Of a DNA stretch of 64,000 nucleotides, positions 51,072-57,474 are shown in pieces; the first letter of the stretch is position 1, and every line of letters starts with the position of its first letter. The notes below the pieces were generated by a model. It was not told the DNA's origin, did not search any database, and saw nothing but the letters and a program-made list of their open reading frames with translations. Source of the stretch: Actinomyces sp. oral taxon 170 str. F0386 (lineage in GTDB: Bacteria > Actinomycetota > Actinomycetes > Actinomycetales > Actinomycetaceae); the NCBI RefSeq assembly GCF_000195595.1, contig NZ_GL882530.1, positions 20,425-84,424 of the forward strand. Direction: 5' to 3'. The position numbers and the translations under genes were made by a program.

Positions 51072-53438
51072 TCAGCTGGCGGCGTCGTCGACCGCCTCGC
51101 CGAAGTCGGGGACGTCCTCGAGCTTCAGGGTTCCGCTGTTCTGGCTGACTAGTCCGACGGCGGGGCGTAGGCCCAGCCACCACTGGTGACGTGGGCGGCG
51201 GTGCTCGCGGTCGAGCTCGTCGTTCATGCGGTCCAGCGGATGGAGGGAGACCTTGCCCTCCACCAGGCCCACGTAGGAGGCCGTCGGCTCACCGCGCTTG
51301 AAGGCACCGGCCAGCAGATCCAGGGAGTAGGCGACGAGCTTGGTCGCCATGATCCGGTCGAAGGCCGTGGGGCTGCCGCCCTGCTGCTGGTGGCCCAGGA
51401 TCGCCTCGCGCACGTCGTAGAGGTCCTTGCCCTCCTCGGCGAAGATGTGGGCCAGGACATCAGTGGTGTAGTTGACGCTGGCCCGCTCGTTGCGGATGAC
51501 CAGGTAGAGGCTGCGGCCCGAGCGGAAGGACTCCACCATCCGCTCGGAGTCGACGGCCAGACCCTTGAGGGTGATGCCCTCCTCGTTGAGGTAGACCTTC
51601 TCCGCGCCGGTGGCCAGACCGGACATCAGGGACAGGTAGCCGCACTTGCGGCCCATGACCTCGGCGACGAAGCAGCGGTGGGAGGCCGCCGCGGAGAGCT
51701 TGATGGAGTCCAGCGCCGCCACCGCGTTGTTGAGGGCCGTGTCGGTGCCGATGCTCAGTTCCGAGCCGGGCAGGTTGTTGTCGATGGAGGCCGGCACGCA
51801 CACGATCGGGATCTGGAAGGCTGGGTAGCGGTCCCGCTCGGTGACCAGGCGATAGGCACTCAGGTAGGCGTTGTAGCCGCCGATGACCAGCAGGGCGTCG
51901 ATCTCATGGAGCTCGATGGCCCGCCCCAGGGCGTAGAGCTGCTCGATGGTGGGCACCTCGCGACGCGTGCCCAGCTGGGCGCCGCCGTCGCCGACCCAGC
52001 CCTCGACGTCGGCCCAGGTCAGCTCGTGCACGTCGCCGTCGAGCAGGCCGGGGAAGCCGCCATAGACGCCCAGCATCGTGAAGTCGTGGTCGAGGCCAAG
52101 GCGCACGGCCGCGCGCGCCGCCGTGTTCATCCCCGGGGCCAGGCCGCCGGCGTGGATGATGGCAACCCGCTTGGGGCGAGCGGCGGACGACGGCGTCGAG
52201 TCCGCATTGGTGGCCGGCTCGGCGGGGGGTGTGGACATGGTCTCGAACAGCTCGAGCATGTTGCCGAAGCTGGCCCCGCGGGCCTGGATCGCCCCGAGGT
52301 AGTCGTGGGCGGCCACGAGGTCCTTGACGGCGCGGGTGGATGCGATCTGCTCCATCATCGGCAGGCGGCGGATGCGGTTGTGGCGCTCGGCGATGATGAC
52401 TGGCTCGCTGCCCGGCTCCATGGCCACCACCTCGCGGGCGGCGGCGCAGCCCAGCAGTGTGGACATCCAGCGGTCGTAGGCGCTGGGGCGGCCACCGCGC
52501 TGGACGTGACCCAGGATGGTGACACGGGCGGCCTCGCCCAGCTTGTCGGCGATGACCTGGCGGACGTCGTCGGCGGTGATGCGGTTGCCCTCGCGGTCGG
52601 TGGCGCCCTCGGCGACGATCACCATGGACTCGCGGCGCCCGGCCTCCCGGCCCGCCTTGAGCTTGGAGCACATGTCTTCCTCCCAGTCCTTGCCCGGGGG
52701 GAGCTCGGGGACCAGGACATAGTCACAGCCCCCGGCCACCGCCGCCATGAGGGCCAGGTAGCCGCAGTGCCGGCCCATGACCTCCACGACGAAGGTGCGC
52801 TGGTGGGAGGCGGCGGTGGAGGATATGTCGTCGATGGCCTCCAGGATGCGGTGGAGGGCCGAGTCGGTGCCGATGGTCATATCGGCGCCCACCAGGTCGT
52901 TGTCGATGCTGCCCACCAGGCCGGTCACCATAAGGACGGGGTGGGCGGCGGCCGTCTCCGCGCTGATGTCGCCGGCCGCGACGAGCTCCTCGAGCAGGGA
53001 GGGCCAGTTCTTGCGGAACTCGTTGGTGCCGGTCAGGGATCCGTCGCCGCCGATGACCACGAGCCGGTCGATGCCGTGCTCCAGGAGGTTGCGGGCGGCT
53101 GCCAGCTGGCCGGCGCGCTCGCGGAACTCGGCCGAGCGGGCGGTGCCGATGATGGTGCCGCCGCGCTGGAGGATGGAGCCCACCGAGTCCCACTCCAGGG
53201 GGCGGATGCCATCGCCGCCGGCCACGGCTCCGGCCCAGCCCTCCATGACCGCGTAAGGCCTGGCCCCCAGGCGGATGGCGGTGCGCACCACGGCCCGCAC
53301 GGCCGCGTTCATGCCCTGGGCGTCACCGCCGGAGGTGAGGACCCCGATGCGCAGGGGCTCACCGTCCAGGCCGAGGAGAGGGCCGGCCGACGAGCCGGTG
53401 GGGGAGAGGGCGGTGTCTGAGGACGTGGCGGCTGGCAT
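51072..53438 (-). CDS. Tandem-domain (eukaryote-like) 6-phosphofructokinase
   Basis: A 788-residue protein of two fused PFK domains. The N-terminal half has RIGVLTSGGDAQGMNAAVRA, the ATP loop VVIGGDGSLTG (GGDGS, ATP type rather than the GGDD of pyrophosphate enzymes) and catalytic GSIDNDLVGADMTIG. The C-terminal half has VAIIHAGGLAPGMN, GGYNAYLSAYR and SIDNNLPGSELSIG: the catalytic Asp is Asn and the ATP loop is changed, as in the regulatory half of eukaryotic PFK. It catalyses ATP-dependent fructose-6-phosphate phosphorylation, probably with allosteric control. ATG 53438 follows GGGAAGGA; upstream starts add 20 residues. Confidence 0.93.
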   Translation of the reverse strand: MPAATSSDTALSPTGSSAGPLLGLDGEPLRIGVLTSGGDAQGMNAAVRAVVRTAIRLGARPYAVMEGWAGAVAGGDGIRPLEWDSVGSILQRGGTIIGTARSAEFRERAGQLAAARNLLEHGIDRLVVIGGDGSLTGTNEFRKNWPSLLEELVAAGDISAETAAAHPVLMVTGLVGSIDNDLVGADMTIGTDSALHRILEAIDDISSTAASHQRTFVVEVMGRHCGYLALMAAVAGGCDYVLVPELPPGKDWEEDMCSKLKAGREAGRRESMVIVAEGATDREGNRITADDVRQVIADKLGEAARVTILGHVQRGGRPSAYDRWMSTLLGCAAAREVVAMEPGSEPVIIAERHNRIRRLPMMEQIASTRAVKDLVAAHDYLGAIQARGASFGNMLELFETMSTPPAEPATNADSTPSSAARPKRVAIIHAGGLAPGMNTAARAAVRLGLDHDFTMLGVYGGFPGLLDGDVHELTWADVEGWVGDGGAQLGTRREVPTIEQLYALGRAIELHEIDALLVIGGYNAYLSAYRLVTERDRYPAFQIPIVCVPASIDNNLPGSELSIGTDTALNNAVAALDSIKLSAAASHRCFVAEVMGRKCGYLSLMSGLATGAEKVYLNEEGITLKGLAVDSERMVESFRSGRSLYLVIRNERASVNYTTDVLAHIFAEEGKDLYDVREAILGHQQQGGSPTAFDRIMATKLVAYSLDLLAGAFKRGEPTASYVGLVEGKVSLHPLDRMNDELDREHRRPRHQWWLGLRPAVGLVSQNSGTLKLEDVPDFGEAVDDAAS

Positions 53439-53671
53439 GTGGGGTCCTTCCCTGAGGTCGCCGGTGGGCCTGGCTCCCGGCGTCGGCCGGGAGGACATCA
53501 GCCCTTATTGTTGCTGGTGAGCGCCGCCACGTCATCCTCCCCAGGTCCCAAGGGCGTTGTTCCGCTATCTGTGATTCTGATTATGCCGGGGGTTAGGTGA
53601 CCTCTGCCCATGCCTACCTATATGTGTCGGTGACCGTTGGCATACTGGTTCCTGAGCGAAAGGAGATCTCG

Positions 53672-54475
53672 ATGAAGGTTGCATTGTCGCTACTTGAAAA
53701 GATGCTCAATTTTTGGAAGCAGGATGGTGATGGCCTCTATGAGTGGTTTGGTGCTATGGCGGCGATGTCGGCTTTGGCTTCGGTCGCATCGAAAACACAT
53801 CCCACTGAGGTTGGTGCGATGGTGTCTAGTTTTGTAGGGTTGGAGGCTGTGTCGCGATGGCTTACGGTAGATGCTCCTCCGATACTTAAGTTTCGCAGTA
53901 TATTTTGGCAGAATGTCTTTATGGCTGTGGTGGTGGTTGTCGTTGTGGCGATGGTGGTTCTGCCGGTTTTGAGGGAGGAAAGAAACGAAGAGAGAGGTGT
54001 GCGCGGGCTTGGTGTTGAATACGAGATGAAGGGGCTGTTATGGTCCAGGGTTGCAAGAACTTTGTGGGTTGTGTTTGCGATCTGCTGTCAAGTGGGTCCT
54101 CCTGAACGGCTTGTGGGTGCACTGTGTGCCCTTGCGGTGCTTGCTGTTGTCTTGTTGGTGACGGCTCTTGTGTGGCGCGTTGTATTGGAGCGATTTCCCG
54201 ATATAGTTTTGGCGCCTATGAGTGTGTGCTTAAGTGTAGTGTGGACGTCAGCGGCATTCCTATTTCTTGCCGTTCTCAACGCCGCGTTTTCTCCGTTGAT
54301 TCGAATTGTTTCGTGGCTGTTCTCTAGTGAGTCGGATTCTCATCGTGAAGTCAGAGAGCAAATTATTGAAAATCGATCCGAGGTTGAATTACCTTCTGGG
54401 GCGGTGTCTTTAGTTGAGGAGGTTGCAAGTAGGCCCACTGAGGGCTATTCGCAGACTCGGATGCCTCGCTTCTGA
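53672..54475 (+). CDS. Hypothetical membrane protein of lower GC content
   Basis: A 267-residue protein with about five hydrophobic segments (VFMAVVVVVVVAMVVLPVL, ARTLWVVFAICCQVG, LCALAVLAVVLLVTALVW, VCLSVVWTSAAFLFLAVLN, LIRIVSWLF) and a hydrophilic end (SESDSHREVREQIIENR). It is unrecognised. Codon use is clearly less GC-rich than its neighbours, including A/T at many third positions, suggesting transfer from another source. AAGGAG precedes ATG 53672. It ends in a 66-base convergent overlap with the small gene at 54410-54757. Confidence 0.65.
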   Translation: MKVALSLLEKMLNFWKQDGDGLYEWFGAMAAMSALASVASKTHPTEVGAMVSSFVGLEAVSRWLTVDAPPILKFRSIFWQNVFMAVVVVVVVAMVVLPVLREERNEERGVRGLGVEYEMKGLLWSRVARTLWVVFAICCQVGPPERLVGALCALAVLAVVLLVTALVWRVVLERFPDIVLAPMSVCLSVVWTSAAFLFLAVLNAAFSPLIRIVSWLFSSESDSHREVREQIIENRSEVELPSGAVSLVEEVASRPTEGYSQTRMPRF

Positions 54476-54757
54476 CCAGTAGAAACATGGGCGGTTCTCT
54501 GGTTCATGAATAAGTTTCACTGAATTGGATGTTGATTCTAGGTGCTTGGAAGTCCTGGTCAATGACGGTGGTTGCTGTACGTCGAGGGCGGCTTTGATGT
54601 CTTCAATTTCGACTGGCTTGTGGATTGGTGTGCATGGGAGCTTTCGGGCCTCAGTGTTGAGGACGTGCTTGCGTCGTCGGCCCCACCGCTTGCCGCTCCA
54701 GAGGCCGAGCAGCACTATGGCACCCACCAGCGCGCTCGTCGCCGTCAGTGCGGGCAT
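54410..54757 (-). CDS. Small single-pass membrane protein, hypothetical
   Basis: A 115-residue ORF. Its start is one membrane helix (LTATSALVGAIVLLGLW) followed by a strongly basic stretch (SGKRWGRRRKHVL), so the remaining 80 residues should be cytoplasmic. AAGGGAG lies seven bases before the ATG, a better site than most neighbours have. The C-terminal third overlaps the convergent gene by 66 bases. A copy of the 154-bp repeat lies 76 bases upstream of its start. It is unrecognised; it could be a false ORF, but site and helix favour a gene. Confidence 0.45.
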   Translation of the reverse strand: MPALTATSALVGAIVLLGLWSGKRWGRRRKHVLNTEARKLPCTPIHKPVEIEDIKAALDVQQPPSLTRTSKHLESTSNSVKLIHEPENRPCFYWSEARHPSLRIALSGPTCNLLN

Positions 54758-54833
54758 GACCGTCTCCCTTCTCGAGCCCTCCTCGTGTCAACCAACGATA
54801 ATTCGTGTGGTGATGCGCAGCGCAGGATTGGGG

Positions 54834-54987
54834 ACGTACTTCGTGATCGGGGACTGCGTTTCGTGTCGGGGACGTACTTTTCCCCAAGATGACTGCGTTC
54901 TGGTCCCAGTCGTCTGCGACAGAACGCAGTCCTCGTGCCGAAAGTACGTTCTCGACGGCGCTCACGGCCGAAGGCCTTGTGCCGCGA
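54834..54987. repeat. 154-bp repeat, copy 1
   Basis: Matches 55865-56018 at 153 of 154 positions (mismatch at 54842). It contains ACGTACTT and ACTGCGTT alternating at 54834, 54853, 54872 and 54892 (19-20-base steps), then the inverted forms at 54923-54930 and 54942-54949. Hairpin arms: 54872-54880 with 54941-54949 and 54892-54901 with 54921-54930. A GGCC-GAA-GGCC hairpin lies near the end. The flank before it shows about 10 more partly matching bases. Confidence 0.93.
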
Positions 54988-55013
54988 TCCTGGGGTGGTT
55001 CCGTCAGGGCCTC

Positions 55014-55784
55014 TTATATGAGCGCTCTGGTGAGTGCCGCCGCGTTGGTCCTCAGATAGTGGATGTCACGCAGATAGGTGGTGTCGTGGCCGTCGTCGAG
55101 GTGGGACTGGAAAGCCGCGTCGCCCTGTGCCGCCTGAGACCGCATGTAGCTGACTAGATCGAGCAGCCGTTGGCACATGGCCTCGATGACCTGTGTCCGG
55201 TCCACCTCGCCGTACTCGTCGCAGAACAGCCGGGCCCGCCGAGCCTGCTCGGCCAGAGAGCCGAAGCCGACCGCATTTTCTGGTGCGGTGAGTGGGGCGA
55301 ACCGATAGATCGCGTAGGCGACGTCGCGGATGCGAGGGCCTGGGTGCGCGGTGTCGAAGTCGATGATGCAGACCATCCTGCTTCCATCGAAGACGCAGTT
55401 GTACGGCGCGAAGTCCCCGTGGCAGACGACCTCATAGGGCTCAACCGCAGTCAGCATCCAGCCGTCCACCACTTTGGTCGCCAAGTCGCTGGTCGCCTCG
55501 TGCAGTGAGTGCAGCGCTCGTGCCGCCGAGACGAGCACCTCGTCGCTGCGCAGTTCCTCAGACAGCGGGTAGGAGCCGGTCTGGCCCTCAATGAACCCGA
55601 GGACCTGCCGGTCGTCGTCGGACAGACCAAGAAATCTCGGTGAGTACCTGAACCCCCGGCACTCCAGCACGGTGAGCAGCCACTCGACATTGGCGCTGCC
55701 CTGGCGCCGACTACGAAGTACTCTGCCGCCCACCTTGGTGACCTCGGTCGACCCGCCCCGAAGGTCCTCGGGAACCTCGCTCAT
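55014..55784 (-). CDS. Aminoglycoside phosphotransferase-like kinase
   Basis: A 256-residue protein with an APH/choline-kinase-type catalytic core: VVCHGDFAPYNCVFDG (HGD with the N six residues on, 122-129), followed by CIIDFDTAHPGPRIRDVAYA (metal-binding DFD at 142-144). The N-terminal lobe is short, with EGQTGSYP-type hinge and VLRSRR near the start. The family includes antibiotic kinases (aminoglycosides, macrolides) and small-molecule kinases; the substrate cannot be said. ATG 55784 is preferred over 55808. It lies between the two 154-bp repeats, with copy 2 80 bases upstream of its start, so it looks like a movable cassette. Confidence 0.8.
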   Translation of the reverse strand: MSEVPEDLRGGSTEVTKVGGRVLRSRRQGSANVEWLLTVLECRGFRYSPRFLGLSDDDRQVLGFIEGQTGSYPLSEELRSDEVLVSAARALHSLHEATSDLATKVVDGWMLTAVEPYEVVCHGDFAPYNCVFDGSRMVCIIDFDTAHPGPRIRDVAYAIYRFAPLTAPENAVGFGSLAEQARRARLFCDEYGEVDRTQVIEAMCQRLLDLVSYMRSQAAQGDAAFQSHLDDGHDTTYLRDIHYLRTNAAALTRALI

Positions 55785-55864
55785 GCCACCTGCTCCATGC
55801 CTTGTCATCCTACGCTGTGGACGACGTCGGGCTCGAAGCGTAGAGGTTGGAGCAGGTGCCGGGA

Positions 55865-56018
55865 ACGTACTTTGTGATCGGGGACTGCGTTTCGTGTCGG
55901 GGACGTACTTTTCCCCAAGATGACTGCGTTCTGGTCCCAGTCGTCTGCGACAGAACGCAGTCCTCGTGCCGAAAGTACGTTCTCGACGGCGCTCACGGCC
56001 GAAGGCCTTGTGCCGCGA
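55865..56018. repeat. 154-bp repeat, copy 2
   Basis: Direct repeat of 54834-54987, offset by exactly 1031 bases. It has the same motif ladder: A at 55865, B at 55884, A at 55903, B at 55923 and inverted b' and a' at 55954-55961 and 55973-55980. The rest of the 484-base gap to sucC (56019-56268) holds only the candidate -10 element at 56189-56194. Confidence 0.93.
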
Positions 56019-56188
56019 GATGAGCCCGACCGGGCGGCCGACCAGCAGCACATCGGTCAGTCGTCAGGTCCGCCGGGCCACAGCGGATGCCCCCGTTCGC
56101 ACGCCCCGCCGTGAGACGCCGCGCCCGCCCTACGTGAGACGCCCGAAGTCAGCCTCGTGTCCAGCCCGTGTGGAGCGTCCTGGGACGT

Positions 56189-56194
56189 TAGGCT
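56189..56194 (+). promoter_or_regulatory. Candidate -10 element of sucC
   Basis: TAGGCT, the same hexamer as before sigH and pcrA, about 75 bases upstream of ATG 56269. No clear -35 element. Confidence 0.35.
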
Positions 56195-56268
56195 CAATAC
56201 CGGTGCCCGCCCGGCCGACGTCGGCCCGCGCCCTCAAGCCATCCACATGCCCCGAGAGGATCAGCTGC

Positions 56269-57474
56269 ATGGATCTCTACGAGTACCAGGCCAGGGACCT
56301 GTTCCGCCAGCACGGCGTCCCCGTGCTCAACGGCGCCGTGGCCACGACCCCCGAGGAGGCGCGCAGCGCCGCGCAGTCCCTCCTCGACGCGGGTAGCGAC
56401 CTGGTGGTCGTCAAGGCCCAGGTCAAGACCGGCGGCCGCGGCAAGGCCGGCGGCGTCAAGCTCGCCCGCACCGTTGAGGAGGCCGAGGCCCGCGCCCGCG
56501 ACATCCTGGGCATGGACATCAAGGGCCACACGGTGCGCGCCGTCCTCATCTCCGACGGCGTCGACCTCGACGCCGAGTACTACTTCTCCATCCTCCTGGA
56601 CCGCACCGAGCGCCAGTACCTGGCGATGTGCTCGCGCGAGGGCGGCATGGACATCGAGACCCTCGCGGCCGAGCGCCCCGAGGCCCTGGCCCGCGTCGGC
56701 ATCGACCCGCTCGAGGGCGTCACCCCCGCCGTCGCCCACCGGATCGTCGAGGCCGCAGGCTTCGAGGCCGGGGCCCTGGCCGACGAGGTCGCCGCCGTCA
56801 TCGAGCGCCTCTGGGAGGTCTTCACCGCTGAGGACGCCACCCTCGTGGAGGTCAACCCCCTGGTCAAGGCCACCGACGGCCGCATCATCGCCCTGGACGG
56901 CAAGGTCACTCTCGACGACAATTCCCGCTTCCGTCACCCCGCCCACGCCGAGCTCGTCGACAACGCCGCCACCGACCCCCTGGAGGCCCGCGCCCGCGAG
57001 GCCGGCCTCAACTACGTGCGCCTCGAGGGCGAGGTCGGGGTCCTGGGCAACGGCGCCGGCCTGGTCATGTCCACCCTCGACGTCGTCGCCGGCGCCGGCG
57101 AGCGCCACGGCGGCATGAAGCCCGCCAACTTCCTCGACCTGGGAGGCGGGTCATCGGCCGAGGTCATGGCCACCGGCCTGGAGGTCGTCGCCTCCGACCC
57201 CCAGGTGCGCGCCATCCTCGTCAACGTCTTCGGCGGCATCACCTCCTGCGACACCGTCGCCCAGGGCATCGTGACCGCCGTCGAGTCCCTGGGTGGGCTG
57301 CCCAAGCCCGTCGTCGTGCGCCTGGACGGCAACAACGCCGAGACCGGTCGCGCCATCCTGGCCGACGCCGCCATCGAGGGCGTCACCGTCGTCGACACCA
57401 TGGACGGGGCCGCCGACGTCGTCACCGCCATCGCCGAGCAGATCAGCGGGCAGACCGCTTCCAAGGAGGCCTGA
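56269..57474 (+). CDS. sucC: Succinate-CoA ligase, ADP-forming, beta subunit
   Basis: With SucD it makes succinate and ATP from succinyl-CoA. The ATP-grasp domain starts MDLYEYQARDLFRQHGVPV and includes KAQVKTGGRGKAGGVKLA, EVNPLVKATDGRIIALD and the C-terminal GNGAGLVMSTLDVV and NVFGGITSCD segments. 401 residues. ATG 56269 follows GAGAGGA; the frame is open to 55966, running back through the repeat. It takes the product of OdhA (10 kb region). sucD follows after three bases. Confidence 0.96.
   Translation: MDLYEYQARDLFRQHGVPVLNGAVATTPEEARSAAQSLLDAGSDLVVVKAQVKTGGRGKAGGVKLARTVEEAEARARDILGMDIKGHTVRAVLISDGVDLDAEYYFSILLDRTERQYLAMCSREGGMDIETLAAERPEALARVGIDPLEGVTPAVAHRIVEAAGFEAGALADEVAAVIERLWEVFTAEDATLVEVNPLVKATDGRIIALDGKVTLDDNSRFRHPAHAELVDNAATDPLEARAREAGLNYVRLEGEVGVLGNGAGLVMSTLDVVAGAGERHGGMKPANFLDLGGGSSAEVMATGLEVVASDPQVRAILVNVFGGITSCDTVAQGIVTAVESLGGLPKPVVVRLDGNNAETGRAILADAAIEGVTVVDTMDGAADVVTAIAEQISGQTASKEA

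Follow-up and report, generated by a model that had tools for sequence, protein, structure and literature searches.

A dispersed 112-bp dyad element between genes on the origin side of Actinomyces chromosomes, and the accessory gene modules flanked by its copies

The window, a stretch of 64,000 nucleotides from Actinomyces sp. oral taxon 170 str. F0386, contains a kinase gene between a phosphofructokinase gene and a sucC-like gene (the pfk-sucC locus). The kinase gene is bracketed by two direct repeats (Table 1). An earlier note had described these as two 154-bp copies differing at one base and spaced by 1031 bp, with two 8-bp motifs, A and B, running A-B-A-B and then, in reverse complement, b'-a'. 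The spacing, the single difference within 154 bp and the ladder positions were all recovered, with the second copy offset by 1031. The repeat extends to 158 nt, over which the copies are 99% identical with two differences. The steps of the A-B-A-B ladder stood, but its fourth rung is not a separate B module. This rung is an arm of the central palindrome, for which the family consensus is GACGACTGnGG, and is an exact B here by resemblance. With A-B-A, the left arm of the window copies exceeds that of the core of their family by one module. Single-copy orthologues at the pfk-sucC locus have the left arm A-B, one module fewer than the window copies.

Table 1. Positions of the repeat units, their parts and the neighbouring genes in the window.
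Feature	Position	Strand	Remark
Phosphofructokinase gene	51072..53498	-	other end of the locus
158-bp repeat unit, copy a	54830..54987	+	16 bp with extra module, 112-bp core and 30-bp tail
Left-most A module ACGTACTT	54834..54841	+	outside the core in the family alignment
112-bp family core, copy a	54846..54957	+	model positions 1-112
Core module B ACTGCGTT, left outer	54853..54860	+
Core module A ACGTACTT, left inner	54872..54879	+
Central palindrome, core columns 36-76	54881..54921	+	includes the fourth rung, 54892-54899
Right inner module b'	54923..54930	-
Right outer module a'	54942..54949	-
Accessory phosphotransferase gene (APH, PF01636)	55014..55784	-	bracketed module; start by gene finder
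158-bp repeat unit, copy b	55861..56018	+
112-bp family core, copy b	55877..55988	+
sucC-like gene (ATP-grasp_2, Ligase_CoA)	56269..57474	+	anchor of the orthologous locus

An assembly artefact was ruled out, since genome G010, a different species from a set with one genome per species, has the repeat pair with the identical spacing of 1031. When the whole source genome was searched with the repeat, 14 matches were obtained, with both strands of the window pair counted, and divergent copies were present elsewhere. Duplication at one locus was ruled out by these divergent copies and by those in other genomes. In an alignment of 11 copies, the ends of which were set by hand, the core was 112 bp long in ten and 113 bp in one. 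With a model built on sequence alone, the source genome yielded 12 strong copies and some weaker ones.

Nine of 39 genomes in a first set had matches at E <= 0.001: the source genome, seven others of the genus (G024 weakly) and one, weakly, elsewhere in the order. G033, from another genus, gave one weak match pair (E 9e-4). A search of the genus gave matches at E <= 1e-6 in 17 of 49 genomes. The source genome and eleven others each have about 7 to 30 places, and G059, also among the 17, has one. Matches in G042, G044, G047 and G054 were weak and divergent, and G024 gave five matches with model R1 and none with model R2 at 1e-6. Two weak copies with identical scores lie near both ends of the single contig of G061 (G061:C1:27332 and 3484855), which may reflect duplication of an assembly end. 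In a collection of named species, the exact right-arm pattern occurred in 85 stretches. Among the 80 listed, 77 were from Actinomyces (oris, johnsonii, naeslundii, timonensis and sp. ZJ308 among the matches listed). The three others were unrelated metagenome genomes in which only about 30 bp of the model matched, where by our own arithmetic about two such exact matches are expected by chance. Carriage by phages was not indicated, as neither an exact pattern match in viral_contigs nor a blastn match in phages was found. One record of a plasmid collection contained a copy (NZ_CP116225.1:212427-212541, 415 kb, Actinomyces oris). Filed as a plasmid, this record may represent either a large plasmid or part of the chromosome.

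The length of the element is nearly fixed. We collected 126 distinct copies from eight genomes out of the matches listed in the first searches and one G057 locus, a sample in which weaker copies are missing. Extrapolated to the model ends, 120 were exactly 112 bp, four were 111 bp, one was 113 bp and one 114 bp. The core is a dyad whose columns pair by i + j = 112. Modules with the tetrad TGCG or GTAC flank a central palindrome at 19-bp steps: the left arm has GRGRAC-tetrad-TT at columns 4 and 23, the palindrome spans columns 36-76 and the right arm is a mirror of the left. The consensus ends are ATCGRGRAC and GTYCYCGAT. The right arm is nearly always b' then a' (inner tetrad TGCG, outer tetrad GTAC on its own strand). 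For the left arm, B-A prevails, with A-B, A-A or B-B in some copies, the usual order of the whole core being B-A-centre-b'-a'. Because of these prevailing orders, the tetrads in their common state are unpaired in a hairpin. A divergent lineage (G042, G044 and G047) keeps the 112-bp plan with coherently changed modules, GTGAAC-GTAC-YTT. Its central arm is unlike a module, so that a reading of the core as six modules is not general. Near position 1256100 of G054:C1 (L304), several copies lie close together and represent a divergent version whose tetrads are of the GAGC type.

The palindrome could act as a bidirectional transcription-end or mRNA-stabilising hairpin, as proposed for REP/BIME elements, by folding and thereby protecting or ending the flanking mRNAs. 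In line with this, the central stem covaried across 118 distinct 112-bp copies of the main family (Watson-Crick 1387 versus 1275 expected), as did the linker slightly (284 versus 256 expected). Compensatory changes were clearest in the divergent lineage, in which the inner module and the stem form a near-perfect inverted repeat (15 copies; 379 Watson-Crick cells versus 331 expected). The named full-length hairpin paired 70% of cells, versus 35-49% in slid versions, but two of five covariation measures did not exceed shuffles. The inner and outer modules of the 118 copies showed no covariation beyond column composition, G-U pairs were not favoured over A-C pairs, and RNAalifold gave no consensus structure for 84 copies. 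Neither window copy contains a T-tract terminator; two terminator-like sites in 54400-56400 both lie outside the copies. Template switching in replication can repair palindromes and gives a matching compensatory pattern, so the compensatory changes are not proof of a functional hairpin. An RNA gene or riboswitch was ruled out by the lack of a consensus fold, of a G-U preference and of any Rfam match up to E = 1 (window 53000-57000).

All 126 collected copies were intergenic, according to a home-made codon-usage gene finder that misses some short or foreign genes. The orientation of the neighbours could be scored for 114 copies (52 convergent, 42 tandem, 20 divergent) and for 52 loci (24, 22 and 6, respectively; five loci unscored), counts that stand without a genome-wide baseline. 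Elements are often 14-60 bp from a gene end. Hairpins acting on flanking mRNAs would suit the common placement between convergent genes close to their ends. They leave unexplained why module sequences are conserved, why some copies sit between divergent genes and why there is a gap around the terminus, and we regard them as an unlikely explanation. No neighbour gene family was shared, as the 95 of 106 neighbours scanned belonged to 107 families with at most three members each.

Homology of the flanks grouped the copies into 57 loci, of which 26 are common to more than one genome and 31 occur in one only, the latter count being limited by the sequence fetched. Changes per column within loci were 0.055 at IC > 1.6 versus 0.494 at IC < 0.4. 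A constraint test drew on the 30 pairs in which both immediate flanks aligned, and from these the closest pair at each locus was kept; flank quality admitted 14 of the 26 shared loci. At these 14 loci, the differing sites were 6/387 at IC > 1.6, 12/310 at IC 1.2-1.6, 36/454 at IC 0.8-1.2 and 41/417 at IC < 0.8, and the flanks differed at 135/1628 sites. The most conserved columns thus had about five-fold fewer changes than the flanks (Fisher P 2e-7), whereas the variable columns changed at the flank rate (P 0.33). Since only the conserved columns change less, the motif bases appear to be kept by purifying selection in place rather than to be passing through uniform decay. Gene conversion from paralogues as the source of the constraint is disfavoured by the flank-rate changes of the variable columns, and detection bias, in which decayed copies are missed, was judged small. 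A free pairwise aligner placed gaps in 61 of 162 orthologous element pairs, with 145 and 135 for the flanks. The earlier note had also considered a unit confined to a single locus with a freely varying ladder. The family instead occupies many loci, and its ladder is constrained.

Selfish miniature elements of the MITE or ERIC-like kind, mobilised by some enzyme, would likewise be dispersed, palindromic and intergenic, with lineage-specific subfamilies. Their conservation would then reflect recent spread, and the gap around the terminus genome turnover. The 31 loci seen in a single genome and the lone place in the otherwise free genome G059 point in this direction. However, 26 loci are common to several genomes, and the conserved columns are constrained after fixation while the variable ones drift like the flanks. 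By eye, the left flank of the G059 copy is that of a locus also occupied in other genomes. Neither a transposase nor an integron integrase was among the 25 commonest of the 107 neighbour families (95 proteins). At G050, the one comparable empty site, no target-site duplication was readable across junctions that were too diverged. The non-autonomous mobile element suggested in the earlier note was not borne out, as the copies persist at orthologous places under constraint, and we consider selfish spread improbable.

In four chromosomes, copies keep away from about one third of the sequence, around the terminus. In G006, G010 and G050, position lists and the location of dnaA placed all listed copies in the origin-side part of the chromosome. 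The largest empty arc took up a fraction of 0.39 of the genome in G006 (22 copies), 0.40 in G010 (27 copies) and 0.54 in G050 (8 copies). The arc centres were offset by 67, 68 and 128 kb from the position opposite dnaA, and simulation P values were 0.0008, 0.0001 and 0.036, respectively. KS tests gave P values of 0.008, 0.0005 and 0.048, which weakened to 0.027, 0.001 and 0.074 when copies less than 5 kb apart were merged. The genomes share loci, so these tests are not independent, and their uniform null ignores a possibly faster gene turnover near the terminus. A weak G006 match at 2,068,917 (E 0.007) was dropped from the test and falls inside the occupied arc. The bias was not significant in G061 for this family alone (8 copies, KS P 0.19). 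A blind forecast of dnaA in G061 at 2.45 +- 0.2 Mb missed its actual location at 2,683,618-2,685,348; a second, synteny-informed guess of 2.66-2.70 Mb was correct. No strand polarity relative to replication was seen in the position list, as judged by eye.

Matches of flanking sequences to one another led to a further dispersed element, about 115 bp long (family 2), the sequence of which is unlike that of the first (family 1). Its modules are TACT-headed, with TACTSCACGAG as the clearest consensus, and lie at columns 2, 23 and 43 and in mirror positions, in the order X-Y-x'-y'. Places of family 2 include G010:C8 (104183, 217861 and others) and G006:C1 (1107250 and others); it was not found in the window. 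Family 2 occurred in 14 of the 49 genus genomes, all among the 17 with family 1. It also avoids the terminus region in G006, G010 and G050 (KS P 4e-5, 0.002 and 1e-5), based on the best listed matches at at least 28, at least 28 and at least 12 places, respectively. In G061, the origin-side bias of family 2 had a KS P of 0.003 for 16 listed places, about half of its copies. Places of family 2 less than 600 bp from family 1 numbered 4 in G010, 2 in G006 and 0 in G050, versus 0.42, 0.34 and 0.04 when jittered.

The layout of repeat, gene and repeat, which the earlier note had likened to a cassette array, was found at four loci in several genomes. At pfk-sucC, the source genome and G010 have element, kinase and element; a single element without a kinase is present in G057, G002, G005 and G006, and G009 has one element with a kinase remnant. 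The remnant, upstream of sucC (L149), has a large internal deletion and is still joined to the tail sequence following the element. G050 has the kinase without an element, and G022 and seven more distant genomes had no element in the fetched pfk-sucC locus. At a second locus, G006 and G009 have two copies with a low-GC, weakly DUF2510-like gene between them. A single copy is present there in G002 and G005, together with a different segment that also occurs in G009. Two copies enclose a weakly REase-like gene in G002 and G005, and likewise in G009 as judged from an alignment of the segment; G022 has one copy without the segment. The fourth locus has one element in G009 (L178). In G005 (L140 1592-14501) it reads element, lac operon, element, Cas9, element, and in G002 (L126 1597-12565), as read up to its far flank, element, lac operon, element, iron uptake (Efe-type), element. 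Modules of lacI-lacZ-MFS, Cas9 and FTR1/imelysin/DyP-peroxidase, each bounded by elements, alternate between strains at this locus. The modules are up to 6 kb long and have genes in both orientations.

Such states might be produced by an integron-like, site-specific recombination of the genomes' own, with the elements as attachment sites and the modules moving as circles via a dedicated recombinase. The alternation of element-module-element with a single element at four loci would be expected from it. For 42 of 87 variable segments, an element lay no more than 60 bp from a boundary; many of the 87 are correlated comparisons, and edges near elements are partly expected, both being between genes. 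The kinship of the copies around modules speaks against it, unlike that of the diverse attC sites. Closely spaced copies were closest relatives in 9 of 11 groups and in 13 of 15 comparisons at the four loci, with further close pairs in G006 and G050 outside this comparison. Mutual similarity in the nine groups was 0.82-1.00, versus a maximum of 0.77-0.83 to other collected copies of the genome. The two remaining groups, 3.5 and 7 kb apart, had similarities of 0.62 and 0.71 and were not closest relatives. The kinase duplication also extends past the core by the extra module and the 30-bp tail, and the length and mixed gene orientations of the modules likewise count against attachment sites. To judge from these sequence relationships, local duplication or a recombination that needs homology fits better than a promiscuous integrase. 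A recombination site with a dedicated integrase, as raised in the earlier note, was not supported, and we consider it very unlikely. The repeat pair of the window is a local duplicate of an element that is dispersed over the origin side in a group of Actinomyces.

The rigid length, the modules constrained in place and the outer arms without pairing beyond column composition lend good support to a protein-binding array, as the earlier note had proposed from the ladder. We hypothesize that the 112-bp dyad array, in which short modules flank a central palindrome at intervals of about two helical turns, is a platform on which a putative DNA-binding protein would assemble. Its function may lie at the scale of the chromosome, in nucleoid organisation, segregation or division-site control, since the sites are constrained in place, intergenic and on the origin side. 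The coherent modules of individual lineages, the twin family and the near-fixed length also argue for an array. Modules such as the kinase would be gained and lost when similar copies of the element at one locus recombine through their homology or are duplicated locally, and module exchange would be a by-product of like sequences lying between genes. To this reading, a dispersed protein-binding array of chromosome-scale function with modules exchanged via homology, we assign a probability of roughly 0.45. A more specific version is possible but doubtful: both families might supply the DNA component of an as yet unrecognised system for chromosome organisation or nucleoid occlusion, with the arrays doubling as landing edges for swaps of the lac operon, CRISPR-Cas9, iron uptake and kinase modules between strains. 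The arrays point to shared edges at which whole metabolic and defence modules are exchanged among Actinomyces strains, and the roughly 8 to 30 constrained, length-rigid, origin-side arrays per genome could serve as bait for the binding protein.

The 112-bp family was not found described in the titles or the beginnings of abstracts of the open-licence papers listed, and it was compared with known systems of repeats and sites. Integron attC sites have the terminal core sites RYYYAAC and GTTRRRY, which by eye are absent at the consensus ends. The elements resemble attC sites as imperfect palindromes at module edges in arrays whose states differ between strains. In attC arrays, however, the sites are diverse and each travels with its cassette, whereas here the bracketing copies are mostly local duplicates and the elements are scattered over more than half the chromosome. 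ERIC, RUP, BOX and Correia elements are intergenic repeats of roughly 100-155 bp, similar in size, in intergenic dispersal and, for some, in palindromy; to our knowledge they have neither a 19-bp module ladder nor an origin-side bias, a distinction made by description. A passage in PMC3733652 gives REPs as 20-40 bp long with a GTAG or CGTC tag. The present elements share with REP/BIME that they are dispersed, palindromic, extragenic and present in many copies, but differ in the 112-bp unit, the ends without a REP tag, the module ladder and the gap around the terminus. On the features tested, membership in REP elements, attC sites or intrinsic terminators was rejected.

The SlmA and Noc systems use tens of palindromic sites per chromosome, each single and short. 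Their specific sites are described in part of PMC4117426 as commoner on the origin side. Origin enrichment and terminus depletion were likewise found here, with significance in the fourth genome, G061, for family 2 only; the difference is that multi-module arrays take the place of single short sites. Actinobacteria are stated in a passage of PMC3989709 to be without recognisable Min and Noc homologues. The arrays may therefore bear on the way these bacteria place division clear of the nucleoid and on the organisation of the origin side in their chromosomes. By analogy, the SlmA and Noc site sets are the nearest functional counterpart of the arrays, which might hypothetically act on division in a similar way.
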